From Protonemura montana (Eukaryota; Arthropoda; Insecta; Plecoptera; Nemouridae): 64,000 nucleotides of DNA. The notes below the pieces were generated by a model that worked only from the letters and a program-made list of their open reading frames with translations, was not told the DNA's origin and made no database searches. A program made the position numbers and the translations under genes. The stretch is taken from NCBI GenBank assembly GCA_947568835.1, contig OX387602.1, positions 7,472,570 to 7,536,569 on the forward strand. Direction: 5' to 3'. Of this stretch, positions 29,358 to 62,347 are shown in pieces; position 1 is the stretch's first letter, and every line of letters begins with the position of its first letter.

Positions 29358-32300
29358 AATTATTTTTCTTTAATAGACCTTGAAATTGCGCTTTCTTTTC
29401 AATATATAAAAATAATCTCCTTATTGTTATCCGATGGAGAAGCAAGGAAATAAATACTACTTATATGAGTGAAAGACGCGATCACGAATGGCTGGATGCT
29501 TTCAAGCATCAAGCAAAATTCCTTCACGTTGGTAATTTCGAGAGCAATATTTCACCAGTCAATGGGACTGAATACGTGTCACCAATTCATCGCGATTGAA
29601 AATAATCCAATTACCTAGCTAAGAATCAAGGGAGCAATCGCTAGCCAAGTTTGAAAGGTACACATTTTAAGATGGTGTTGAGAAAAAAAGGCTTGTGGAG
29701 CAACAGCCATAAATAGATTAACACCTATCCTAAATGATATTCTTTCGAGAGACTATAAATCACGACCACCGTGTCTCTAGAGTTTCCAAATTCTGAAGAA
29801 ACAACATTTCCCTCACATTTTAACAGCTTTTTCAAGTAAAACCACCTCGATTTCTTTTCAAGTAGAAGAAGATTCTCGTGCTGAGAAAAGCTGCAGTATC
29901 ATAGCAAAATTCTTTTCAGGATTATTAGAGGAATTTGCATTTATCATTGCCGAATGACGTTCCACATTTTTGGCACTGTTTCAAAACGAAACTGCATTCG
30001 TTTGAACAAGCAACGTTTCGCATTCCTGCCATGATTTGTATCTGGTAAGGATGGGAATAATTCATCTTTTGTGACTCCTCGTCCATCTTTGAGTTGGCAT
30101 CCGCTGCAGGACGTTTGTTCTAAGAACGGACACCCCGGAAGATGTATCGTGCGTGATGGAATTAAACACAACCTTTTTCTGCTCAAAATCAATACAGTAA
30201 TAAAAAAAAGTTGTGGAAGCAAAGCGTCATGTATTATATCAGAACTAACAGCTTCTTGGTTGAAAATTGACAAATGGATCTCGAGAAGGAATTCATGTCT
30301 GTGCATACTTTGATCAGAGTTGTTGTTAGTGTGTTGGAAACTCATCTCTACGTTGTTACAATGAAAGTTGAAATATAACATAGTAACACAAACATAATCT
30401 ACTATAGACCCAAATTTCAGATTATGTATTAAACGCCCATCGATGTCTGACCAGCGATGCAGTCTTGTAAAGACAAACGATTGCTCAAAGCATAATTTTC
30501 AATTAAAACTCTACCTCTTCAACGCATTTATTTTGTTTCATAGAATCGTTATGTTCTATGCATTCAGAATTCAAACAAACAAACAGCCGCTCGGTTGGTT
30601 TTTCTTCAGTGTTGTTCATCAGGCCTGTTCCACCTCAGTTCCGCACTGCTTGCAGATCTTCAACAAACACTGCAATGCACTACGGAATTGAAGTGGAAGG
30701 ACCGCATCGTTTCCTGCAGCCAATGCTAATGGCGTAGTTGTGCAGGGCCAAGGGCGATGAAAGCTTGGCACTCCCTTTGTCTCCATCAGGACTCCTGCGC
30801 CCCCTGAGATCAGCGATTATTCGTGCCGTCGGCGGTGAGCGCCAATTCAATGCTTTCTTCCGACCGTCTCCGATCAATTAAAGGAAATCTAGGAAAATAT
30901 TTTCGTGGTCCTTAAAGATGGTGTCTTAAAATATGTGCTCATTTTAGATTTTGTGTTGAGTTATTATTGGAGAAAAGACGTCTTAAGCTGTTTTTTTTAA
31001 CTATTGTTTTCTTTTAGCGTCAACCAAGTCAATTTCATTGAGATCCCTTTTCTATGGAGCTTGTTTCCAGGTCATACAAATAGGCACAAGTCTTTTTGTA
31101 ACTCTAGCTTTGAATCGACGTTAATTGAATGATTTTACAAAATAAAATATATGTGCAGGTACGGAAAATTAGTTCGTTTTTGTGCACATGTACACCATAT
31201 AAAAGGTTTTGATCTAGAGGGAAATCACTGAGCAATATTTCAATTCAGCTGCATCGAGCAGGGTAACTATTTCTAAGCTTTGCCAAGCACCAGTCAGTAG
31301 TCAGTACTATTGAACTTACTCATTTCACTAAAGAGATGTTTGTTTCGCGAATAGGTACGTGTTAATTGGGAATGTAAACTATTTAATAGAATCATTCGAG
31401 ATTAACTAACTTGAGTTTAACTATGTGCTTGGCTTGGGATGTAGCGAGGTGGTCTCTAAAGGGCCCAACCCAAAGTAATGTTAGGCTGCTGACGTTAAAC
31501 CGACCCGGATTTCAACAGTTTTACTAGGATCATAAACCCAGTCCAAGATAAGTCTCGCAAGTTACAGCTTTCGAAAGACAATATTAAAGTAACTTTTGTT
31601 TCATTTGATACCAAAGTGTTTTTAACCATAGAGCAGCTTCCTGTCGACTAAATTAATATGGATAAAACAATAGTGCGTTTTCATGGGTTTGGATATTTTC
31701 AGACCAAAGGTATTAACATTTGCACAGATGTTCAGTGCTTTTTTGCTCTTCAATTTATAACATTTTTTACATTCATGGAATAAGTTTGAGGATTAAATCG
31801 ATACTAGCTAAATATTACCATAGTAAACGAGTTGATATAGTTTCAACTTTTTTTTTTTTTTTTTTAATAATATCTTTTATGTTCAAACTTATATTTATCT
31901 ATTCTGAATACGAGTCAATTTCTATCCCATTTTCTCTCACAATACATATATATATATTTTTAAACTTACAAAAGCTATTGTACAAATTGTGCTTGTTAGC
32001 TTTCATAATAAATCAACAACGGTCCTCGCCTGTGACTTTTTAAGTTTTTTTTTTTCAATGATAAAAAGTGATGAGCATGACGATAGCCGTAAAAATTATT
32101 GGTGTGTGATTAAGTTGCAACTTGCTGATGGGGAGAAGAAAATTTCAGAGCAAGAGCAAGAAAAGAGCAACAACAAAAGTACAAGATACTGGGTGTGTTG
32201 AAGAAAAAAACGAGAAAAGCACATGTAAATAAATTATTAAATTCTAAGTGCGCTTTTATATAGTTCCGATGAGCACTTTAATGAAGTGATGCTACGGGGA

Positions 32301-35300: not shown

Positions 35301-35769
35301 GGGCCTTGTCATGCTTTTAGCTCCTGTTCGTTTGAACATCAAGCTGAGAAAATGGTACCACATTCAACTTCAAAATGTCCTCTCTTTTGCAACCAAGTCT
35401 AGCTTGTTTGGCCCAAGAGTGTATACGTGTATTCGTTCTATGTAAACCGCAGAAATCCCAAAAGACAAATTACCCTCATGCCGCGCTCTAAACACAGAAT
35501 ACAATTATTGATACCCCCTGCCCCGTCGGCAACCCCCTCCTCACCGAACAGCATCCCTTGCCGCTCCTATACAAGTCCCAGACTCCGCACAGAGCAGAGG
35601 GAGAACACGACCTCACGATTTCCATAAAACGAAGTGTGATAAAATTAACAGCGTGAAATTTACTGTTCGCTTCATTTAAATGCTTATTGGCTATTTTGTC
35701 GCCAACAATACAGATAACACTACGCGTTGGCTAATTCGAGCATGCAAATGACTCAAAGAAAACTAGCTC

Positions 35770-35775
35770 TCTTAC
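35770..35775 (-). other. Neuroligin splice donor
   Basis: On the minus strand the coding frame meets GTAAGA right after the esterase signature 2. The reading frame beyond it loses all similarity to neuroligins, which supports this as the exon end. Confidence 0.85.
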
Positions 35776-36286
35776 CAGATCTAGGCACGTAGATGTTGAG
35801 GTAGAGGCAGTCTTCGCTCTGGTTGGCTAGGAGTGGCAGTAGTTTTTCTAAGTAGAGGAGACGCCCTCGAGGTAACTCAAGGAGTGCCTCCGTACGATTT
35901 CCTATTTCAGGAGCCCGCTGAGGGCACACCGGTGAGAATGCGTCGGCCAGTCGTGTACTCCTCCACATAGACGGCGTCACCGGAGGCATGTAACGTAACG
36001 ACCCAAGCGGTGGGGTCGCGTATGGCACCCCTAGAAATGCCTCGACTGGCGGTTGGTTTTGTAACTGTTGCAGAATAACACCGCGCAACGGTCCGTACTT
36101 CGTGCGAACGACTCTAGTGCTATATTTGTGAACTAGTAGCGAACCGGAACCGGACGAACCCTGTGACTCGACGACAAATACGACGCAACACATTAAGAAC
36201 AGGGCGCGTATGAAATAGGTAGTGCACGGTAATTGGAATACGGCATCACGTATTTGATGTGCCCGCACGAATGGTTGCAGAAGCAT
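35776..36286 (-). CDS. Neuroligin, first coding exon (partial gene)
   Basis: Neuroligins are postsynaptic type I membrane adhesion proteins whose extracellular, catalytically dead cholinesterase-like domain binds neurexins. This exon gives residues 1-170. A hydrophobic stretch at about 28-40 (ALFLMCCVVFVVES) fits a signal peptide. The domain opens with VVRTKYGPLRGV and VEAFLGVPYATPPLG (about 59-95), and the exon ends in SEDCLYLNIYVP (157-168), which matches the type-B carboxylesterase signature 2. Cys121 and Cys160 are placed like the first conserved disulfide. NRT (130) and NQS (155) are N-glycosylation sequons. The ATG has a good context (TCCGCCATGC) and an in-frame TGA lies five codons upstream (36299-36301). 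The frame is interrupted after ...CCT AGA TCT G by GTAAGAG, a strong donor at 35775-35774 (phase 1). The remaining exons must lie to the left, probably beyond position 1. Assigning it to neuroligin and not another cholinesterase-like adhesion protein rests on the GRLLYLEKLLP-LLANQSEDCLYLNIY stretch, which resembles insect neuroligins. Confidence 0.92.
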
Positions 36287-39200: not shown

Positions 39201-41132
39201 TTTTAAGAATGTCATAATTGTTTGTTATGAATTGGAATTGGAATTCTGCACTCTATCAAACAAATAATTAATAAAAACCTACATCATATTTCAATTCAAT
39301 TTCTTTATACAATAGATTTTCCAAGGAACTGTCAACATGATGTCAACATGACATGGCAGCATGCATGTGTCACAGGCGAAACTCCCGTTTGTATTGGATT
39401 TTATAAGCCTTGTTTCCAATTGGTCCTGTTTTATGCATATGTGTTCAATGCACAATTAATTGTGCATTGTAGTTTTGTGCACATTTCCCACACATGTGCA
39501 CATTTTTAATTATAACACTCATACATCTATTTCATATTTTTAACTTTTTTATGTGTTGTATATGTGTTGTAAAGTGAAAATTAAAATTTCTGTTAATTTT
39601 CCGAAGCGGGCGTTACAGTAAAAACAAGCTTCAGAAGTTTGAATTATTATATAATCTCAGGTGCGTGCCGAACTAATCTGGAGCGATGTTGTGCACTTAG
39701 TTTTAATAAAAACAAAAACGCGCATAATCAATCTAAATGTAGCGAATTAATTAACAGTTGTACGATACTAAAGACTTGATACACGCGTTGAGCTTATCTG
39801 GCTGTCATCCCCTTCCGATTCCCAATGTTTCAGAGTTCTGCTCATTTACAACAATACTCTTTTTAGGCATTTCCATCAAAGTGAAAATACGTCAGAACAT
39901 TCTGTTACAATAAGAGAAATTACGACCTTTAAAAACATTTCAATCCCATATTTTAGTATTTTATTTTCACCAGCAACGTGAATGGTTCATTTAATATTTT
40001 TATGAATGTGCGTATTGCCGAGTTTCCGATTTTCCGATTTTCCTCCACCATATCTATTCAAACGGCTGTCAACAGACCGATCGAATTCACAGATTGCAAA
40101 ACGTGAGCTTCAGTAATTCGTTATTTTTCGTCAGTGGTATTGAGTTCCTGAAAGGTTCTATTTTATTAGATGCCTCGATTCGCTGTTTAATCGGCTGAGA
40201 GCGAAGACCCGTTGAAAGTCAAACGCAGCCAGCTTGACTCACTCCCTTCAAAGGATAGTTTCATTCTAACCTTTATAATTCATATTAATTAAGAAAGGAC
40301 GTTGACGATAATGTACGAGGAGAGGATAAATTTAACCGCCAGAACATCCAATTAAACTTCTAGAGTTGCCAATTAGCGTATTTCTTCCTCTTGAGCTAAG
40401 TGTTTCTACAGCCAATATAGTAATAATATAAGTCTATACTCTGCGCTCGCCCTTGTGGTTTTGCATTCTTTTGTACAGGGCTGCGCACAGAATAATGGGT
40501 TCTGGCCCGCAGACCATAAATAAGAAGCTGCATGGGCAAAGACTTATCAAGTGAAGGGGCTTTAAAAGCCGGAAGATAGGCAAACAGCGCAGTTTACTCG
40601 GGGAAAAAAAAACAGTAGAAAACGGAACACCAGCGGACCTTAACTTAAGATTCAGTTTCTCGCAGTGAAAGGAACTCTTTATGAAAGCACCTTATTTTAA
40701 AACCAACAGGAAAACAACTAATTTCACTGGAGTCGTAAAAGGTATTGTTCTAGAAAGATTTAAGTTTGTCCCTCTTACTCTCTCCCTTTCCTTCACGTGC
40801 AGCCAACGTTAATAACGAAACATAAAACGTTTCATTTCTCAAGTTTGCGTTGAATACTTCGGGGTTTTTTCACCATCCCAGTTGGATCCTTTTGTTTGAG
40901 TAAGTATTTTGACAATACTCTCGAAGATGCGTGATTGCTTCACGATCACGAGTCTTTAGAAACTTTACCACCATACCTTGCCGCCTTGAGAATAAATAGC
41001 AGTCTCGAGTCATGGAAATTGAGTTTTCAACTACCTCATAGCTTCCCAGAATTCTGTAGCAATTTTATGTTTATTTTCATCCAAGTAGAAAGCAGACAGT
41101 AATTAACTTATACCATTGTCTAATTCCCACAC
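36287..41132. other. 5' flank of the neuroligin coding exon; non-coding
   Basis: The first few hundred bases (to about 36480) are CpG-richer and probably 5' UTR or a promoter-proximal region of the minus-strand neuroligin transcript. I see no convincing acceptor that would define a separate 5' UTR exon. The remainder is AT-rich. It holds a CpG-rich patch at 38700-38930 that may be a MITE and a 24-bp perfect palindrome. No other gene is recognised. Confidence 0.5.
39446..39469. repeat. 24-bp perfect palindrome
   Basis: CAATGCACAATT is followed immediately by its exact reverse complement. There is no spacer, and the symmetry breaks at the next base on each side. Function unknown. Confidence 0.9.
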
Positions 41133-41346
41133 AGCACATGATATCCCTGGGATATCCACAGGACGTACGCAATGTTCAAAAAACATCCTATGAAAATGGT
41201 ACGTTGTGGGGATGTCCCGGGTACATGCTGAAATGGATCATCCCTAGCCCATTTTATTTGGTCATTGTGAGGATATCCCGGGGACATGCCAGAAAACACG
41301 TTAAAATTGGTCATTGTGGGGATATCCCGGGGACATTCGGCAATGG
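41133..41346. repeat. GGGATATCCC-type repeat cluster, left of transposon genes
   Basis: Three tandem units begin GGTACG/GGTCATTG at 41199, 41260 and 41309 (spacings 61 and 49). Each continues TTGTGGGGATRTCCCGGG-ACAT. An inverted relative (ATATCCCTGGGATATCCACA) lies at about 41140-41160, just inside a CACACAGCAC sequence. Alternating direct and inverted GGGATATCC motifs are typical of transposon subterminal regions, where transposase binds. That function is inferred. Confidence 0.75.
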
Positions 41347-42163
41347 ACCACAATATTATCTTCGTAAGTTTTTCAAACATACTTTGTCTAATATTTCACA
41401 AACTATTACGTCAATTTGGAACGCATAGATATGCCGTGTTGATCAGTCGATTCAGCGATGAAAAATGAGTAATCTATGTTAATTTCAACTCACGAAACCT
41501 CCGACAAAATAAGTTTCAAGATCGTTTCAAATTTGTTAAATTTCTCGAGCTCACAATATGAAACCATGGCTGAATCTCTTACTTTGCAAAAAAAACAATT
41601 TTGGGTGATCCAAGTTTTTTGTCATTTACTCGCTCAGTTTTCTAGCTATGCTGAAAGAAACGTCTATATAAAATGTAGACGAGATCAATAGGTATCTGAA
41701 TGTTATATCAAACAGTCGTTATGGTCCTTTGACTTTGCGTGAGAGTCTCTTGTAAGAGTCAAAGCGTAGTTTTTAGCTACACTTAGCCTTCTACTCTGGT
41801 CGTTTATCTCTCTCAAAGGTTAAAATCTGGCAAGTTAGTGTCCTGATAAGCTTGCCAGGGTCTTCGCGGTTGTGTTGATGTTCTGGTTTACCTGATTTGA
41901 TTGATTATACGAGCAAAGGAGTGTATGTTTTATGGTTGAACAAGCATAAGTGGGTGTACCCTTGTCATCGCAGCCTGGGACTCGTTTCAACACTATTAAA
42001 AGTGTTGATTGAATCGATTAGCTGAATCAAACCAACCTACCCCATCGTACAATTTACGCTGTATCTCGATCGTCTTTCAGAATCGCGCCACGAAGTGTCA
42101 TTCGATCGTTAAGAACAAAATATCGGTGATTTGAGAGCATTTACATATTATTTTCATCTCGTG

Positions 42164-42422
42164 TGACGTCAGACCACACGATTAGATCACATTATGACGT
42201 ATCTTTCCCACGCTCGGTGGTGTGGTTAATATTGGATCGATTGCGTAGATATAATATCATCGATTCGATTTCATATCGGTTGTCGAATTAATTAATTCAT
42301 CTAAATACAATTAAATGTGAAACCGAATCAAAAAATAAAAATACGGGGAGTCGGAAGCGACCGAACAAAGCCGATCACTGAGCGCAATATTGTCACGTGA
42401 TGTAAACATAGAAGCCATCTTG
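42164..42422 (+). promoter_or_regulatory. Probable promoter region of the transposon transcript
   Basis: Upstream of the first untranslated exon lie a perfect CRE palindrome TGACGTCA (42164-42171), a half-site TGACGT at about 42195, an E-box palindrome TCACGTGA (42393-42400) and GCCATCTTG (42414-42422), whose complement CAAGATGGC matches the YY1/Pleiohomeotic site. YY1-type sites near the start of transcription are known in other mobile elements. No TATA box in a clear position. Function inferred from motif and position only. Confidence 0.45.
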
Positions 42423-42429
42423 CCTGTTC

Positions 42430-42547
42430 AGTGATTGCTCGACTCGCAGTGCTACGATCTCTGAGTACAATTCTGATTTCGGGCTTTATGTGGATTTTGC
42501 CTTGTGGATTTTTGCATCAAGAAGCAACAGAATCTGAGGATACAACG
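42430..42547 (+). other. Putative 5' untranslated exon 1 of the transposase
   Basis: The 3' edge is set by the donor ACG|GTAAGA at 42548. The 5' edge is approximate. The exon has no long open frame. It could also feed gene B directly by splicing to the acceptor at 45288-45289. Confidence 0.45.
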
Positions 42548-42724
42548 GTAAGATGCATTCTTAATCATTATATATTTTGATATCATAATACTATTACTTT
42601 TACAGCGTCTTTGTAAGGTTATCTTGCCTTGCCTTGCCTCATGGACCTTACTAGTTACTTGGTTCGTAAGCTACTTTAATAAATGACACCTAGCCTGTAA
42701 ATCTATTCACTTTTCTGTTTTCAG

Positions 42725-42819
42725 CTCAGCTTAATTTTTCTTGTGGAGAGGAAAACCTAATATTAACAGCAGTATTGTAGAGCAAGGGTCTGAGCTCCTG
42801 GCTTACAATTTATTTATTG
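42725..42819 (+). other. Putative 5' untranslated exon 2 of the transposase
   Basis: Bounded by acceptor TTTTCTGTTTTCAG (ending 42724) and donor TTG|GTGAGT (42820). The next intron ends with TTTATTGCTAG at 42925, two bases before the transposase ATG. Both signals match consensus. Confidence 0.5.
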
Positions 42820-42927
42820 GTGAGTTTACAATATTGTATGCTTCTGTTAGGGTAGTGGCTTAGTCATCCTTGGCCTAGCCGGCTAATATGCAATACTTTG
42901 TAGTTACCTCTGGGTTTATTGCTAGAG

Positions 42928-45063
42928 ATGCCTCTTACTGAGAATGTTTCTACAGAAACACTTGAACTTCCAGCTCTTCTTTCAAAGACAACCATGAGTG
43001 GCACAAAATTAAAATCCCACCGACAGAGAGACAGGCTTGTAGCGCAGGAAACGAGCCAAGCACTTCAATATATTAATCAGGCATCTTCATCTGAAGAAAT
43101 TGACAGTGACGACCCTCAGCTTTTTTCCAGTCATGAGATTTCTCCTGTCCAGAGCCCGATTTATGCCGCCGATGTAGATAGTTTGATATCAGACCAACGC
43201 TCTGATATTTCAGAAGAGTCAAGTTTTGATGAGCAAGCCTCGACCATCGAAAGACCTTTGAACGACCAGTATGAGCCTAGTGAGTTTTGCGATCCAGATG
43301 TGCGATTCGATTCAGTTGACAAGTCGTTCCAAGACCTACTGGCTTCCTGGGCAGTGAAAGATAATGTGCATCATAGTGTTGTTAACAATTTACTAACAGT
43401 GCTACACTCACACCCATGCCATGTCAACCTTCCAAAAGATGCACGCATTTTACTTGGGACTCCCCGTTCCACCGGCGTTCAAAACGTTTATCCCGGTAAA
43501 TACTGGCACCACGGGATAAAAAATGGCATTGAATATTTGCTAGGCAAAATTAGTATTGCTCAAAGACAAATACCCACAACCATCAAACTCGTTGTGGGAA
43601 TAGATGGTCTTCCAATTGCCAAAGCTTCGGGCAGCCAACTGTGGCCAATTTTAGGACTGGTGCGAGAAATTTCCAACAAACCATTTCTCATTGGGTGCTA
43701 CCATGGGGATGTAAAGCCACATTCTCCACATGATTTCTTGAGAGAATTTGTAGAAGAGGCTGTAAACCTAACATCCAATGGCATCTCAATCCAGGGCAAA
43801 GTGAGGCAATTCAAGACCACATCGTTTATATGTGATGCCCCGGCTAAATCTTTTGTGACGTGTACCAAGGGACACTCGGGTTTTTACAGCTGTACCAAGT
43901 GCACCCAACGTGGAAACTACATCGAAAATAGAGTGTGCTTTCCATACAGTAAAAATATCGAACTGAGAACGGACGCGTCATTCCAACAGCACCGCCAAGA
44001 AGAACATCATGTTGGTCTTTCTCCACTGGAAACCATACCAGGGTTTGGACATGTGTCCCAATTTCCACTGGACTACATGCACCTCATCTGCCTGGGAGTG
44101 ACAAAAAAACTTATTCTTCTTTGGATGCGTGGAAAATTGCCAACGAAGCTGTCCATGGGGCAGGTCAATCGAGTTACTGCGAAACTCTTACTGTTAAAAA
44201 CCTGTGTTCCGGTCGAATTTGCCAGAAAGCCTCGGGATTTAAAATCGATTGATCGGTGGAAGGCTACGGAGCTCCGCCAATTTCTCTTTTACAGTGGGCC
44301 GGTTGTGTTGCTGCAAGTATTGCCCAAAAAATTATTCCTCCATTTTCTGACACTCCATGTCGCCGTGAGAATTTTGGCATCACCAGATATGTGCGCCACT
44401 CACAACGTGTACGCTGACGAACTGCTGCATTTTTTTGTTGAGCGCTTTGCAAAGCTTTACGGGAAAGCGTTAGTTTCGCACAATGTTCATGGTTTGCTCC
44501 ACATTGCGCAGGATGCTGCAAAACTGGGTGCACTCGATAACTTCAGTGCATTTGCTTTCGAGAATTTCATGCAGGAACTGAAGAAACTTGTCCGAAAGTG
44601 TGATAAGCCACTGCAACAGCTCCACCGACGTTATGAAGAAATTAAGAACCAATCATCCGTATTTACTGCCAGTCAATCAGAAAGCAAAATAATTTTCTCG
44701 TTTGTACATGTCAATGGGCCTCTGCTGAAGGATTTTGGAGATCCCCAATACAAACGAGCCAACTTCAAAAACTTCTCTCTTCGCATTGACCAGGCTAATA
44801 ATTGTGTTCTTAGCGATGAGGACGACATTATTATTGTCGAGAACATAGTGAGTTCGAGAAAAGGTCAAATGTTTGTAATTGGCAGGTTGTTTGAAGCCAG
44901 AGAAAATCTTTTCGAGAAGCCAATCCACTCGTCCGAGCTAGGCATTTACAAAGTGCACACGCTGTCGAATCGAAAATTCTGGCCAATCAGTAAGATTTGC
45001 GCCAAATTAGTTCGGTTTACTTTAGGCAACACTGATGTTGTATTTCCTCTTCTGCATTGCTAA
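42928..45063 (+). CDS. CACTA/EnSpm-like DDE transposase, 711 aa, intact
   Basis: Cuts and rejoins the element's ends in the nucleus. The start is ATG 42928, two bases after a splice acceptor (TTATTGCTAG); an in-frame TTG upstream lies across that acceptor and is not used. Residues 1-120 are acidic and Ser-rich. The catalytic core reads VVGIDGLPIAKASGSQLWPIL with probable first Asp at about 226, ICDAPAKSF with second Asp at about 303, and DNFSAFAFENF with Glu at about 545. Cys312/Cys322/Cys325 with an intervening GHSG form the usual metal-binding-like insertion after the second Asp. FPLDYMHLICLGVTKKL (about 380-396) is the helix motif characteristic of this tnp2-related family. The C-terminal 140 residues end GIYKVHTLSNRKFWPISKI...VVFPLLHC, as in invertebrate relatives. 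No internal stop or frameshift, and all key residues are present. A donor-like AAG|GTAAAA sits directly on the stop codon. Assignment of catalytic residues is by motif resemblance. Confidence 0.9.
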   Translation: MPLTENVSTETLELPALLSKTTMSGTKLKSHRQRDRLVAQETSQALQYINQASSSEEIDSDDPQLFSSHEISPVQSPIYAADVDSLISDQRSDISEESSFDEQASTIERPLNDQYEPSEFCDPDVRFDSVDKSFQDLLASWAVKDNVHHSVVNNLLTVLHSHPCHVNLPKDARILLGTPRSTGVQNVYPGKYWHHGIKNGIEYLLGKISIAQRQIPTTIKLVVGIDGLPIAKASGSQLWPILGLVREISNKPFLIGCYHGDVKPHSPHDFLREFVEEAVNLTSNGISIQGKVRQFKTTSFICDAPAKSFVTCTKGHSGFYSCTKCTQRGNYIENRVCFPYSKNIELRTDASFQQHRQEEHHVGLSPLETIPGFGHVSQFPLDYMHLICLGVTKKLILLWMRGKLPTKLSMGQVNRVTAKLLLLKTCVPVEFARKPRDLKSIDRWKATELRQFLFYSGPVVLLQVLPKKLFLHFLTLHVAVRILASPDMCATHNVYADELLHFFVERFAKLYGKALVSHNVHGLLHIAQDAAKLGALDNFSAFAFENFMQELKKLVRKCDKPLQQLHRRYEEIKNQSSVFTASQSESKIIFSFVHVNGPLLKDFGDPQYKRANFKNFSLRIDQANNCVLSDEDDIIIVENIVSSRKGQMFVIGRLFEARENLFEKPIHSSELGIYKVHTLSNRKFWPISKICAKLVRFTLGNTDVVFPLLHC

Positions 45064-45289
45064 GGTAAAAGCATCCCCTATGTCACAGCCACATGGATAG
45101 CTAATTCAAGCTATGATCAGTAATAGTGTACACAATTATGGTGCCCCTAGACTAGGTTTCTCTTGCCCTTCTCTCACGCTCTGACGGTGAAGCAGAGAAG
45201 CACCAAGTACATTCTCCTTGGTAGCCTGGGCATCTTGCAAAAAAAACCAAGATCCACTACTTTTTATTAACTCACAATATTTGTTTCAG
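45062..45289 (+). other. Inter-gene splice signals: donor at transposase stop, acceptor before gene B
   Basis: The transposase ends TGC TAA G, and GTAAAA begins at 45065. TTGTTTCAG ends at 45289, ten bases before the gene B ATG at 45300. This forms a plausible 225-base intron whose removal leaves the transposase stop, then a short leader, then gene B. It suggests a common pre-mRNA, with gene B expressed either as a second cistron or by skipping the transposase exon from the 5' untranslated donor. Confidence 0.55.
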
Positions 45290-45299
45290 GTTTGCTACA

Positions 45300-47005
45300 A
45301 TGGCCTTCTGCGTGGTGTCGATAACCGACAATGGTAATCTTTTTGTTGATGCGGTACCACAGTCATGGTTTGTTATGAAAACCAAGCAATGTTACTGGCC
45401 GCCAAAAGCAGTGGATACTGCCAAAGTTTTGGCAGCCATTAGGAATGAAGACCTCCCCAAGAAGAACTGGCCAATGTATTCCGCTAAACTTATGGGGAGG
45501 TATGGTACGTAAACTGATTTATTTTGTTGTATCGCGTTGCATGGCATTTTTGTTGATTCACACTTGTGAATTTCATATGCATTTTGTTGATTTGGCCATG
45601 GTTGATGTCCACATTTAAATTTAAATGTGCATGGCAATTTGTTACATTCATAGGGTGCCGACAAACAAGTGATTTTTGCTCTCATTTTTTAGCTGACTTG
45701 GCAACTGCACAGCTGAAAGCAGAAAAAGGAACTACCTATTCCCGTCTGACGACAGACTTCAGTGACTCCAGTGAAATGAGTTCCGATGATGAATTTCCAG
45801 CACCACCTAAGAAAAAAAATAAGAAAGCCACAATGCAAGGTGCATCATCGCTGACAGCACAGCTGCAAGATCTCCCCCCTTTTTCACCGCTCTCCCCTAT
45901 GTCACTGCCTCAAGACTCCCCCGTAGCACAGCCGCAGGAACATTCTCCCTCGACGCAGCCTCGGAAACAGATCTCTATGTCGCAGCCCCGGAGAATAGCG
46001 TATTCGCAGTCTGGTAAAGACAGAACTGTTCCATCGACACGTGATCGAGATACACCTAGCCGGCCGCCACCTCACTCTCCACCTTCTCGCAGGCGTGAAT
46101 GTAAGCTGAATAAATTAGCCTTTTCTCAGCTTAAGTTTACTATCTCTTTTTTTGTGAACTATTATTAATGCCTTTTTTGCAGGCTTTGAATCGGAAGTAA
46201 TTCGTCTGCTGACCCGGCAGAAGGTCGAACTTCAGCAGCTCCGAGCAGGCGTTGATCTGCTATTGGCTGCTAGCAGCAAGTCTGCCAACACTGAGGCACC
46301 AGCTAGGACAAACCTACTTGTTGAGCTGCTTTTACCTGTCAAGTCTCTGAATAGTTTAGACATCCTGGAAAAGAAACTGGAGAAAATTGATATTTTTTTG
46401 GGCCTGGTATGTAAAAAATCTGAATGAACTGGTGGTGTAGTACTGTTTCAAAGCAAAAAAACTCAATAACAACATACCAAATTAATTGTAATAAATAATT
46501 TTTTTTTTTAGATAAACGAGCTTTCTCGAGTGGGGGGATGTTCTGTCAAGAACAGCGTTGCTCGCATTATGGAGCGTGTGGTTACATCAGATGTAGCTGT
46601 CAGTTACAGTTGGCCAGGAAAGAAAAAGAAAAATTCTTTTAGCAAGCTGACTCTTGCTAAAGTCATCAAACGTATGTATAATGTAAAAGCATTGGTCTTT
46701 GCTCAATTATTACATTTGGATTCTCATCAGAATGATCGGCCCGATTAATAATAAAACCGCTTATAAATTACTCCAATTTCAGAAGCTGTACTAAAACTCA
46801 ACGAAACTGCCAGCGAGAAGGAGATAGAGGGGGCCATCCAATGTTGGTTGGTTAGATCCAAGGAGCGGCTTTTGCGTGCTACTAATATTTTGTAAGTAAA
46901 TATATTTGTATATAATGTATGGCTTGGTGTTGTTATAAGTTATCAAAAACAGTAATTTATTTGTGATGCATTTTCAGGCCTGAAAACTCCCAAATTACGG
47001 ATTAA
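45300..47005 (+). CDS. Spliced DUF4806-domain transposon protein, 377 aa, six exons
   Basis: Accessory protein of the transposon; molecular role unknown, with DNA or transposase binding possible. Exons: 45300-45504, 45693-46100, 46183-46406, 46512-46671, 46783-46891, 46978-47005. Every intron is GT-AG and the phases (1,1,0,1,2) join without a frame break, giving 1134 nt. Exon 1 encodes a small N-terminal domain with WFVMKTKQCYWPP and KKNWPMYSAKLMGRY. Exon 2 is acidic, then basic (PPKKKNKKA, possible nuclear localisation), then rich in Pro, Ser and Gln with SPxAQPQ/STQPR/SMSQPR quasi-repeats. Exon 3 begins with a short heptad-like helix (VIRLLTRQKVELQQLRAGVD). The DUF4806 domain covers roughly residues 252-365 over exons 3-5: LPVKSLNSLDILEKKL, INELSRVGG, YSWPGKKKKNSFSKLTL, IEGAIQCWLVRSKERL. 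The last exon adds only LPENSQITD. The family name is from memory of the domain's pattern. The model is ab initio and no transcript was available. Confidence 0.85.
45610..45629. repeat. 20-bp perfect palindrome in gene B intron 1
   Basis: CACATTTAAA followed by its complement, with outer GCCATG and CATGGC arms a few bases away. Potential hairpin in the pre-mRNA or a binding site. Function unknown. Confidence 0.8.
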
Positions 47006-47263
47006 ACTGAACTTTCACAACCAGCCAACACAATTTCATCACTCATATTTAAGTTAAGCTCAAGTTTAAGTGTCCTGTAAATTTTTGTCTTTTACGAGTG
47101 TTGTATTTATAAATGCAGTTCTTGCAGTATATTTCTTAGATACAGTTTCCAATGATCATATATTCTGTAAAAATCTTTATTGTGATCGTCAATTATCTGC
47201 CCAGTGGTAGACAAAGATAGTATTAATGATCAAGTGCAAATTAGTTATATTTCATGACCATAG

Positions 47264-47835
47264 TTACCAAGCTAATGATGGCGTTGAGGAAGGAGAGATT
47301 TCCTTTTCCAACCTACATTTGGTTTTGTATCGTAACCATTATTATCAAGCCAATGATGGCAGTTAGGTAAGAGAGATTTTATTTTCACTTTATTTTGGTT
47401 CTGAATCGTAACTAGTTGCTAATCAAGCCATTGATGCCAGTCCGGGATGAGAGTTACTCATTTTTCTTTGTATGCTTGGGTGTGTGAAGTTACCAATACC
47501 GACGATGGCTGTGAGGTACGAGAGATACTGTTTTTCAATTTTCTCTCAATATTAAGACTTTGCGTGGATGATATCAACCGTTGTCAGATACCGATATTCT
47601 ATCAATATCAAGACGTGAAAAATGTATGTATATCTGTTTCATATCATCTTTCCGTAAAGACATATTAGTTGGCAGAAAAGATGTCATTTTTCAACCTACC
47701 GTTGGCTTAAACAGCAATTATAATTATTTTTGCCAAACATGTGTTACCAATGCCGATGATGGCTGTGATTGGTTTGAGCCTATGAGGGAAGATATTTTGT
47801 GTGTGGCTGCTTCCCATTTTCTTTCAATATTATTA
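47264..47835. repeat. Tandem repeat 3' of the transposon genes, unit 71-78 bp
   Basis: The motif TTACCAAGCYAATGATGGC followed by TGAGGTAAGAGAGAT begins at 47264, 47342, 47419 and 47490. A displaced fifth copy is at 47744. The last two also share TTCTCTCAATATTA downstream, so the unit includes more than the core. Divergence is moderate. The position directly after gene B suggests a 3' subterminal region or 3' UTR of the element. Confidence 0.8.
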
Positions 47836-48084
47836 TGTGAAATGTCCTTATCTTCAGAACGAAGAATTAGAAACTTAAGGAGAATCTTATCATTAACATT
47901 AGTTACTATATTGCCTAGACAAGAGATTTTCCATGTTGCCTCTAACGTGATGTTTAGCATAGCATCCACTTGATTACCCCATTTTATGACCAATCTGTAG
48001 GTCGAATTTTGTACACTGCAATACAATAATAAATATGCAACAGAATTTTTAGTTTTTTTTAAATAACTCATTAAATCCCATAAA

Positions 48085-48155
48085 ATCGATATGCAGACAA
48101 TATCCCGACGATATATGTGGTACATCCCTTGGAACCTCCAAGGCACGTCCGTGGC
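48085..48155. repeat. GATATCCC-type motifs, right of transposon genes
   Basis: AATATCCCGACGATAT, GTACATCCCTTGG and ACGTCCGTGGCATAT resemble the motifs in the left cluster (41133-41346) but are more decayed. The complement of the left cluster contains ACGTCCTGTGGATAT, close to the last motif, which gives the inverted arrangement expected at opposite ends of a transposon. The similarity is short and could be chance. Confidence 0.4.
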
Positions 48156-51100
48156 ATATATATAAGAAAATGGTAAGAAGACGTCTCACACGTCTCGCTG
48201 GTAGTATGTTGACTCGATGTAGAATAGCAACGTTGTGCACAAGGAAAAACGATATGCGGTGAGTAAGGAAGTGTGATACAAAACAGAGCAGAGCTTATAT
48301 AACAAGTCCTGTGTTGGGATTTTAATGAAAATTCCTTTGCCGCGAAAATGGACCAATTATTCATTCGGACATTGTTTCAGTTTGGGAATAGAATAATCTG
48401 TGAAGTGTTTGGTGATCATTGATAAATTCGAGTCACAAATGAATTGAGACCGCCACGCTTGTACACGTCGTCAGCTAAGCAGATTAAAAAGCTTTCATTA
48501 CACAAGGAAAATGGGGGGTGAAGCCCGGTACAAAGCAGAGAGTGTTCGGCTGCCTGCTTGAAGCGGCTTGTAACGAACCTAAAATTATACAATATCAGCA
48601 ATTATCTCCCTTGATGTGCATAAGTATGTAAAGCTGAATAAGTTTGCGTTACCACACATACTTGCCATAACAAAGTGAGTATATTGTAAGTTAAAATACT
48701 TTAACCTAGATACCACGCTGCAACATTACGAAATGCTCACCTAAAAGAAAAATATTTTACAGAGATTCTCAAGTCCTTAAAATATTCCAGGCATGAATAC
48801 TACAAAGTTCCGTGATTACATCTATGGCAATCCTTTTGAGTATCTCTACAAACTGGGTACCCACTGGGAGGATATAATATGGCAAAGTTATTCCAGTGGA
48901 ACATAGAATGATCCATTACAGCCAAATTTACAATAATGCCATTTTCTATGTGCTGTATAATTTCAATTTTCATCGAGACTGAATGATAAAAAGTGTAAAC
49001 GCCAGCTGAATAATAATCATGCCATAGATTTGGAACACACAGTTCGCCTACATCACCATTAATCCGTTGGTTTTTGTCCCCATAGAAAGCCTTCTGAAGT
49101 GGTGGTGGTGCCGAGTACTGGCAATGATACCAATGCCATACGCAATGCCAAGCCTGTCCCCGATGCATTGTCCAATACTTTAACTTCATATGATCCGCTA
49201 ATTCCATCGAATAAATGAAGACTATTGAAATTTTTTTATATATTTGGTTTAATTTTGGAGAGGATTATGTAATTTGGAAATGTAGGTATTCGTAATAGAC
49301 CCATATTCAAACGTACATCCTTACACTAGCCGAATTATTAATATTTTATTAAGCGTTAGAACTTTTTCACAATATTTGTATTCTCATTTGACAAAAAATC
49401 TGTAATTGACGCAAAATATACGCATTGACAAACCAATCTCGATAAAAGGTAGCCGCTAGCGACATGCAGGTACATCAGCTGTTCGGAGACTGCCAATTGC
49501 TCCTGGTCGTTCTGATATATTTTGACGAGACAGATCTGCATTGAATGTAACGCGACGTGATTGATAGCTGAATATGTATTTCAGATCAGGTCTCGTCACG
49601 GGGGATTATGTATGCCATTTCAGAAAGAGCTCTGCAAGCCTGGAATCCAAAGGCGCACTTTTCCAATCCCTTGGGACCCTCTGAGGAGTCGGATCGGGAT
49701 GCCTTCGCATGCGGATTCTGTCGATGATGCTGGCGCACATGCTTTTGCCTTTTATGTTTTGCTATTTCGTGCCTAACTTTGCATAATCTCGACATGGGGA
49801 TTATCAGGGTGGGTTTTACGTTGTTTTCTAGGTCACATCACTGGGCGATTTCATCAAACGAAGGGCGGTGCATTGAGCATCAAGACGTCATTACAGTTTT
49901 ATCGACAGAAGGTACATCTTTCTGTGTGCCATATGCGAAAGTTTAAATTAAATTTACTGTATTCTTGTAAGCGAATGAAAGTTTGCAGTCCAATCTAAGA
50001 ATAAGAAATTGATTGAAATGTTTAGCTTCATCAAAGTTGGATCGTGAATTGCTTCTCGACGATAAATTCAAAGATATTTCATTCGCCTCCACAACTATTT
50101 GATAAAATAGGCCATTCAATACCACAAACAAGAATTTCATTAAACTCATCATTCACTGTTAATTTCGTCTAATTAAAATGGATATTACTCTGCCCATACT
50201 TTATAGACGTGGCGCGAGTGAGAAATATTAATTTCCTATTTATAATGAAATTTTGCGACCGCCGGGAAATATTTTCCCTTCTTTTTTCCGGCTCTATTCG
50301 CAACAGGAGATGAAAAATTCTCGATATGAATTTTTATAAATTAAAGGCCGCATAAATTTAACACTCTTGGCGTTTTCAAGCACCTCGGCAGCACCTTAGA
50401 TTATCTCATTGTGTCAACCACCTTGCCAGTTTCTTGCATATAGCTGTAAAGTTATTAATCGCCAGTAATCTTGTATTTTATTATTAAACTATGTGGTGCT
50501 AAAGTATTCCAATCTACTTGCGTGCAAGTGGGCAAGCTAAACTTTCCTCGCAGAGAAATTGATGAGGGAATGTTGAACGTTGCCGAGAAAGTGCACGTTC
50601 GCTCAAACCGAGACCTAGCTAAGATTAAAGTGTGAATAGAGGTGGGATGGGAGCTGGGTCTAGTCAACCGGCAACCCGCAACGCACAGACGAATATAAGA
50701 AATAATGAGGAACAACCCTTCTGGGCTCAAAAAGCACTAAAGGTTGGCAAATTTCATTCTATGATGTATGCTAGAGCCTGACGAGCTGCCAAGGGATTTT
50801 GCCACCTTTGCTGTCGTAAAAAGGGGAATTGCTGTTTAAAAGCATCACTGCACTCTCCAAGCATTTTCATATAAAATTGTGGGCTGGCTTTAAATGAATT
50901 TCTAGTTTAATTTGAACATTTAAATTCGGCTAAATATACAGTTTGCATTAACATTTCCGACGGAAAGTGAAATTGAATATTATAACCCTTTCTGAGCAAT
51001 AGTCGTTACTGTAACATTACTCGAGCAAAAGTGTACCTTCATAGTCGTACCAGGACGTGGAGTTCTAGGAATTCCACAAGTAATAAATACGAATAACACA

Positions 51101-61847: not shown

Positions 61848-62278
61848 CTGGACCTTTAGGAGAACTTAGGACTCCCATGCATTCCCTATGATATATAAAC
61901 TAATTTATTCATCGGAACAACTTATCACTGACTTAGTTACAAAATCAAATCACATAGCAACTAAGTATTCATTGGAAATCTGGAAAACGTTTCGGCAGGT
62001 CTCGAGACACCTTGTATTTACCATGTATCTCGCTTACTCGAAGTAGTTGTCAACATAAAGGCTTATCTTGGTTCCTGATATTACTCAGGTACAGAGTTCC
62101 TTAATTAGTTTAAGCCATATGCAACGTGCAGTGACGTCCAAACGCTTCTACCAATGAGCGTGCGAGGGGGAAACAGATTGGTACATAGATTCGATTACTT
62201 GGTTAGGCTCGTGGGGGTTAATGCTCAACTAATCAAGTTAGCTGCGATGGTTTAGGGAACGTACGACGACGACGACGA

Positions 62279-62347
<69 letters not shown>

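Follow-up and report, generated by a model that had tools for sequence, protein, structure and literature searches.

Two neighbouring genes on contig OX387602.1 of Protonemura montana (Plecoptera, Nemouridae; GenBank assembly GCA_947568835.1) raise the question of whether they belong to an intact, recently active transposon or to a pair of genes that the host has kept for its own use. They lie on the forward strand of a stretch of 64,000 nucleotides (positions 7,472,570 to 7,536,569), hereafter called the window, and a preliminary description made from its letters had presented them as an apparently intact, two-gene CACTA/EnSpm-like element whose undamaged state reflected recent activity or domestication. 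We examined the whole genome (258 Mb in 34 contigs, the window being part of contig C1; labels such as C1 or C2 for contigs and L007 to L059 for loci denote places within this genome). The two genes belong to a family of TRC-type DNA transposons, that is, animal CACTA/EnSpm elements, that has recently moved, a reading to which we give a probability of about 0.88. The window copy is itself not intact, as its right terminal repeat is gone.

The element was delimited by the sequence that its copies share from end to end, each boundary being set where the flanks diverge. The window copy, truncated at its 3′ side, spans 7046 bp on the forward strand (41126 to 48171). Similarity starts at 41126 in this copy and in the six others whose left end was read, with the left terminal inverted repeat CCCACACAGCACA (41126 to 41138). 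On the right, the window copy diverges at 48171, and six copies extend 183 bp further to a shared end, which is the inverse of CCCATACAGCACA, which matches the left repeat at 12 of 13 positions. Complete copies elsewhere in the genome measure 7,229 bp, or 7,237 bp with an 8-bp insertion, and an internally deleted copy measures 5,112 bp. All six copies with two ends, a set that excludes the window copy, have CCC/GGG termini (the repeats beginning with CCCACA and CCCATA), and all six are flanked by 2-bp target duplications (TA in four, CA in one, AA in one).

The preliminary description had proposed a search for near-identical copies, and they are there. A 3-kb query from the coding part found at least eight places, the window counted; six of these, again with the window, span the whole query at ~100%, one match (L008/L015) is 100% identical over 911 bp, and one (L007/L014) is 97% identical over 1.3 kb. 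The left end was found at eight places (seven at 100%, one on C12 at 94%) and the right end at seven, where the window matches over only 77 of 260 bp and the six others over all 260. Among seven aligned copies (six long ones including that of the window, and the internally deleted L015), three substitutions, at window positions 41727, 41731 and 46615, and one 8-bp insertion were counted, leaving aside three bases at the L015 deletion junction. Under a star tree, substitution rates of 2e-9 to 1e-8 per site per generation, which were assumed and not measured, would put the age at ~6,000 to 31,000 generations, with upper limits of 18,000 to 91,000. The family is very young and was recently mobile, and the claim of recent activity thus holds.

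Gene 1 is a single open frame of 711 codons on the forward strand, from the ATG at 42928 to the stop at 45063; for independent bases in the proportions found here, the chance of a given frame staying open for 711 codons is ~1.5e-20. The encoded protein of 711 amino acids is a DDE transposase carrying D226 and D303 (77 residues apart), C322xxC325, H521xxxH525 and E545, as well as the motif LDYMHLICLG at residues 381 to 390, and the same motif order is described for CACTA, Mirage, Chapaev and Transib elements in passages of PMC12730594. The enzyme would cut at the CCC/GGG ends and insert the element with 2-bp duplications. An acceptor-like AG stands right before the ATG, and 42548 to 42549 on the same strand is a candidate donor site for an untranslated exon on the 5′ side.

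The transposase was linked to a known superfamily through its relatives. An alignment of the protein with three relatives (34 to 40% identical) matches, with a probability of 99.9% over 383 columns (hhalign), a two-sequence alignment of L042 and L040 from a distant group, and L042 passes the Pfam family Transposase_21 (PF02992) with 33.6 bits against a cut-off of 28.6, the only one of the six relatives scanned to do so. DUF4218 matches were found in five of these six, each under its cut-off. Together with the motifs, this link supports the CACTA/EnSpm-like character first ascribed to the two-gene element.

Several results weigh against this placement. The window transposase matched no Pfam family at E ≤ 1, and a genome-wide search for Transposase_21 returned five matches, each of which belongs to the distant L042 group and none to the window family. 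No solved structure matched the transposase profile, and an AlphaFold model from the single window sequence was useless (mean pLDDT confidence score of 33.5). The published TRC motif I (DeMarco et al.), compared by eye, fits at all positions but one, where an A stands in place of the listed F or Y. NCBIfam gave no match for the transposase either. Superfamily membership rests on the relatives and the motifs, since a direct Pfam or structure match is missing. Because the link through the relatives is strong, we take the missing direct match to Transposase_21 as a matter of distance, recognition by Pfam being a test of sensitivity and not a defining TRC trait. As for motif I, passages of PMC1636069 place it in "most" TRC elements.

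TRC elements were described in 2006 as the animal branch of CACTA, with SmTRC1 of Schistosoma mansoni and TRCs of Aedes and Tribolium (PMC1636069, in the passages considered). The window family has CCC...GGG termini with inverted repeats, a 2-bp target duplication, the link to Transposase_21 proteins, two D residues ~80 apart, CxxC, LDxMHxxxLG, HxxxH and the final E, and passages of PMC1636069 give the termini, the duplication, the D spacing, CxxC and LDxMHxxxLG as traits of TRC elements. The CACTA termini and 3-bp duplication of classical plant CACTA elements are absent. The TRC group is already known in animals, and the family is ordinary in kind.

Within this group, SmTRC1 also encodes a second protein downstream of the transposase, through alternative splicing; it differs in being ~4.5 kb long with 54-bp terminal repeats, compared with 7.2 kb, 13-bp repeats and long subterminal arrays here (PMC1636069, same passages). 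Passages of PMC4298943 class as TRC the Hydra element Spongebob (EnSpm-4N1_HM), which has a terminal repeat starting with CCC, CCCAGCCAACATTGAC, and 2-bp duplications but, unlike the window family, no exact transposase found. The plant elements En/Spm (TnpD and TnpA) and Tgmt* share with it the pairing of a transposase with a second protein, terminal repeats of small size (13 bp in Tgmt*), arrays of subterminal repeats and both autonomous and deleted copies, whereas plant CACTA elements have CACTA ends and, in Tgmt*, 3-bp duplications instead of the CCC ends and 2-bp duplications seen here (PMC2613891, in part); in the comparison with En/Spm, the lack of a direct Transposase_21 match to the window transposase is a further difference. 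Plavaka, ESTA, Mirage and Chapaev, of the CMCT group, likewise have C(2)C and H(3-4)H between the second D and the last E, but the termini quoted for CMCT lineages in passages of PMC12730594 differ, being mostly CA..TG (TGT..ACA or CATCA..TGATG in Plavaka), and ESTA has TA duplications.

The search of the genome with the transposase gave 37 matches, fragments included, with identities from 100% down to 27%. Five of them lie close to contig starts (C1 at 140 kb, C2 at 43 kb, C8 at 74 kb, C10 at 58 kb and C30 at 3.7 kb), perhaps near chromosome ends. Two distant CACTA-like transposases, L039 (C12:15131370) and L040 (C1:140170), carry a long N-terminal tandem repeat of GDAVH[LE]; the likeness that Pfam reports between L039 and a histidine-rich protein of Plasmodium appears to be a chance effect of low complexity. 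A search of viral contigs gave 18 pattern matches, no relative among them, and a bacterial promoter scan upstream of gene 1, a method not suited to animal DNA, scored below the shuffle mean.

Gene 2 follows on the same strand, with six exons predicted at 45300 to 45504, 45693 to 46100, 46183 to 46406, 46512 to 46671, 46783 to 46891 and 46978 to 47005, the last containing the stop. All five introns have GT/AG borders, and the predicted product has 377 amino acids. Exon 1 encodes a VPxSW...CYWPP region, and the Pfam domain DUF4806, which begins in exon 3 and continues in exon 4, was recognized at residues 255 to 326 (28.2 bits against a cut-off of 25). The two genes, the full-length transposase with its catalytic motifs and the six-exon structure therefore stand as they had first been drawn. 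Solved structures gave one chance match for gene 2 (E of 0.92). A Pfam search of the genome for DUF4806, a domain split by exon borders, gave no match, but as the controls gave none either it was uninformative. An acceptor-like AG lies upstream of both start codons (at 45288 to 45289 for gene 2), and neither AATAAA nor ATTAAA occurs between the genes; the two proteins would probably be alternative splice products of a single transcription unit. Downstream of gene 2, still within the transposon, a 78-bp unit is repeated 2.4 times (47257 to 47441).

Pfam lists DUF4806 as a domain of unknown function. In the literature passages considered, it is treated as such, as a chromatin factor candidate or as a bare gene name; many genes with it are reported, from Hydra, an ambrosia beetle and a zebrafish sex-chromosome region, and none of these passages ties it to CACTA elements. 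A literature search joining the BEN domain with CACTA gave no BEN domain in the top matches, and BEN and DUF4806 occurred together only in the zebrafish paper, as far as its passages go. A further literature search, for animal EnSpm elements with a second protein, gave no paper that combined five of its six terms. The link between DUF4806 and a transposon may be new.

A pointer to what gene 2 may do lies in the ends of the element. The motif GGGAYRT, on either strand, occurs 17 times in the terminal 2 × 300 bp and twice in the 6.6-kb interior. Dinucleotide shuffles of the ends (n = 2000) gave a mean of 0.9 and a maximum of 6, figures that overstate its rarity because the motif had itself been selected among k-mers over-represented in those ends; even so, the contrast between ends and interior is large. 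In the window copy, nine matches form the left array (41141 to 41336), two pairs of them overlapping as palindromes, and two of the eight on the right remain (48100 to 48128). Subterminal arrays at both ends, a trait of En/Spm-like two-protein systems, are thus present, with the reservation that the motif was chosen post hoc. In En/Spm, TnpA binds the subterminal repeats and is required with TnpD for transposition (PMC2613891, in part). By this analogy, we lean slightly towards a gene 2 product, with its VPxSW/CxWPP and DUF4806 regions, that would bind the GGGAYRT arrays and join the two ends, as TnpA does in maize En/Spm, gene 1 being the TnpD-like partner.

The closest competitor keeps the same transposon but gives gene 2 another task, such as acting against host silencing or regulating the element. 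We regard it as a serious alternative, though clearly less probable than end binding. Pfam's silence on function is compatible with it, and the view of DUF4806 as a form of the BEN DNA-binding domain goes back to a single remark in the zebrafish paper, in the passages considered. A sister subfamily, represented by L027, also showed no GGGAYRT in the stretches read, in which its ends were not located (two motifs used to seek them found none). If gene 2 binds the ends, its target may therefore differ in that subfamily. These points, and the post hoc choice of the motif, speak against end binding. In its favour, transposition of plant CACTA elements depends on their second product, which binds to subterminal arrays (PMC2613891, in part), and such arrays are present here.

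The sister subfamily also bears on where gene 2 came from. Its transposase is ~40% identical to that of the window, and its gene order and DUF4806 domain are the same; its copies L027 (C2) and L028 (C17) differ at 5 of 4,980 bases. In 3.4 kb of additional downstream sequence examined at L027, one exon aligns with gene 2 of the window (E of 1e-7), and two exons spliced together score 35.9 bits for DUF4806, while singly the first stays below the cut-off with 16.8 bits and the second has no score. The intron between them falls at the same residue as the one between exons 3 and 4 in the window. More widely, the exon 1 pattern was found downstream of the transposase and in the same direction at 5 of the 21 relative loci searched, with E of 1e-6 at L032 and L033 and E of ~0.4 at L027, L028 and L037, where the motif VPxSW...CxWPP and a splice donor after TATG back it. 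No gene 2 turned up at the other 16, which counts against the model, but many of these are fragments taken with just a 1.5-kb flank. Since the sister subfamily has the same gene order and DUF4806, these comparisons indicate that gene 2 belongs to this transposon lineage.

That gene 2 is instead a captured host gene carried as a passenger is improbable. Its five introns, against none in the coding part of gene 1, would suit such an origin, but gene order, exon 1 pattern and intron position recur in a subfamily only ~40% identical in its transposase, and among the 38 gene 2 matches listed in the genome, all lie in copies of the window family. As that search missed the gene 2 of the sister subfamily, it may also have overlooked a distant paralogue in the host.

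The sister subfamily has itself multiplied in a defective form. The 5′ part of L027 is listed at 17 places, and at each of them the 3′ part (L059) lies nearby on the same contig: two are long copies, 14 have the same 5-base gap between the matched pieces at 99 to 100% identity, and one on C4 has another deletion. Judged by the matched pieces, the shared gap and this identity mean that a single form with an internal deletion has spread to at least 14 places.

Within the window family, defective copies have moved as well. L012 and L013 on C4 share the 8-bp insertion at the equivalent of window position ~43864, by which the transposase frame ends at codon 349, yet their target duplications differ and their fetched flanks have nothing in common at E ≤ 1e-5. 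The deletion in L015 removes ~2.1 kb, starting inside gene 1 and reaching into the first intron of gene 2; a few filler bases stand where the two sides meet, and this copy too carries its own target duplication. From the frame-shift common to L012 and L013, their unrelated flanks and the separate duplications of all three copies, it follows that defective copies were mobilised in trans by transposase made elsewhere. Apart from one base at the joint, the 8-bp insertion is a copy of its neighbouring bases. Elements of the hAT type make 8-bp target duplications, and the insertion may be the excision footprint of another, hAT-like transposon that came and left.

The claim of an intact transposon, which had been based on the coding span, did not survive. 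The window copy breaks off between 48171 and 48172 and lacks the final 183 bp of the element, right terminal repeat included; displacement of this end within the window was rejected, as two probes from it, with up to 3 mismatches, found nothing. Over all 7,046 bp, copies on C2 and C3 that have both ends show no difference from it. Having lost one end and kept both genes, the window copy lacks the combination of two ends and two genes that marks an autonomous element and can probably no longer jump by itself, although it can probably still make both proteins. It would represent a recent insertion that later lost its right 183 bp. No empty paralogous site was found for it by a genome search with both 1,200-bp flanks, each flank matching only itself in a search that skips common words.

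Loss of a terminal repeat commonly marks an immobilised copy, and with both frames open it could suggest a domesticated pair, kept for host use and fixed by the loss of the right end, as the preliminary description had allowed. We reject this as very improbable: only one end is lost, the gene is not single-copy, and identity with the two-ended copies on C2 and C3 leaves no time for selection to show. An old copy, L014, is decaying, since the stretch of its gene 2 that can be aligned (exons 1 to 4) shows 17 codons with replacement changes, including a stop, as well as 8 silent changes, a 6-base gap and an altered first splice donor; of the 17, the change at codon 314 also occurs in four of the seven young copies. 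Least probable of all is that recent segmental duplication or gene conversion made the copies alike, for although the two C4 copies lie ~75 kb apart in opposite orientation with the same frame-shift, their fetched flanks are unrelated at E ≤ 1e-5, none of the copies compared resembles another beyond the element ends, and each has its own 2-bp duplication.

The surroundings bear out the assignment to an animal genome. An N-terminal exon of a neuroligin-like gene lies on the reverse strand at 35756 to 36286 (best solved-structure matches to neuroligins, E of 2e-21), so that the transposon stands ~4.8 kb upstream of it and antisense. A mir-932 precursor was found on the same strand as this exon (30626 to 30698, Rfam 68.9 bits). 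In insects, mir-932 is located in a neuroligin intron, which makes a protostome host probable, and the precursor perhaps lies inside an intron of this gene. Elsewhere in the window, the hexamer ACGGCG is repeated 14 times (62263 to 62347).

This very young two-gene CACTA family is represented in one assembly by complete, frame-shifted, deleted and end-truncated copies, a range that makes cut-and-paste transposition and trans-mobilisation directly testable in a little-studied animal group. DUF4806, listed in genome papers as unknown or as belonging to a host gene expansion, gains a transposon home and a testable role. Tentatively, and at somewhat less than even odds, we propose that the protein with DUF4806 corresponds in animals to the En/Spm TnpA, as a dedicated end-binding factor that has accompanied TRC-type transposases since the two subfamilies split. 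If so, the many DUF4806 genes of Hydra, of the ambrosia beetle and of the zebrafish sex-chromosome region would largely be transposon genes or their descendants.

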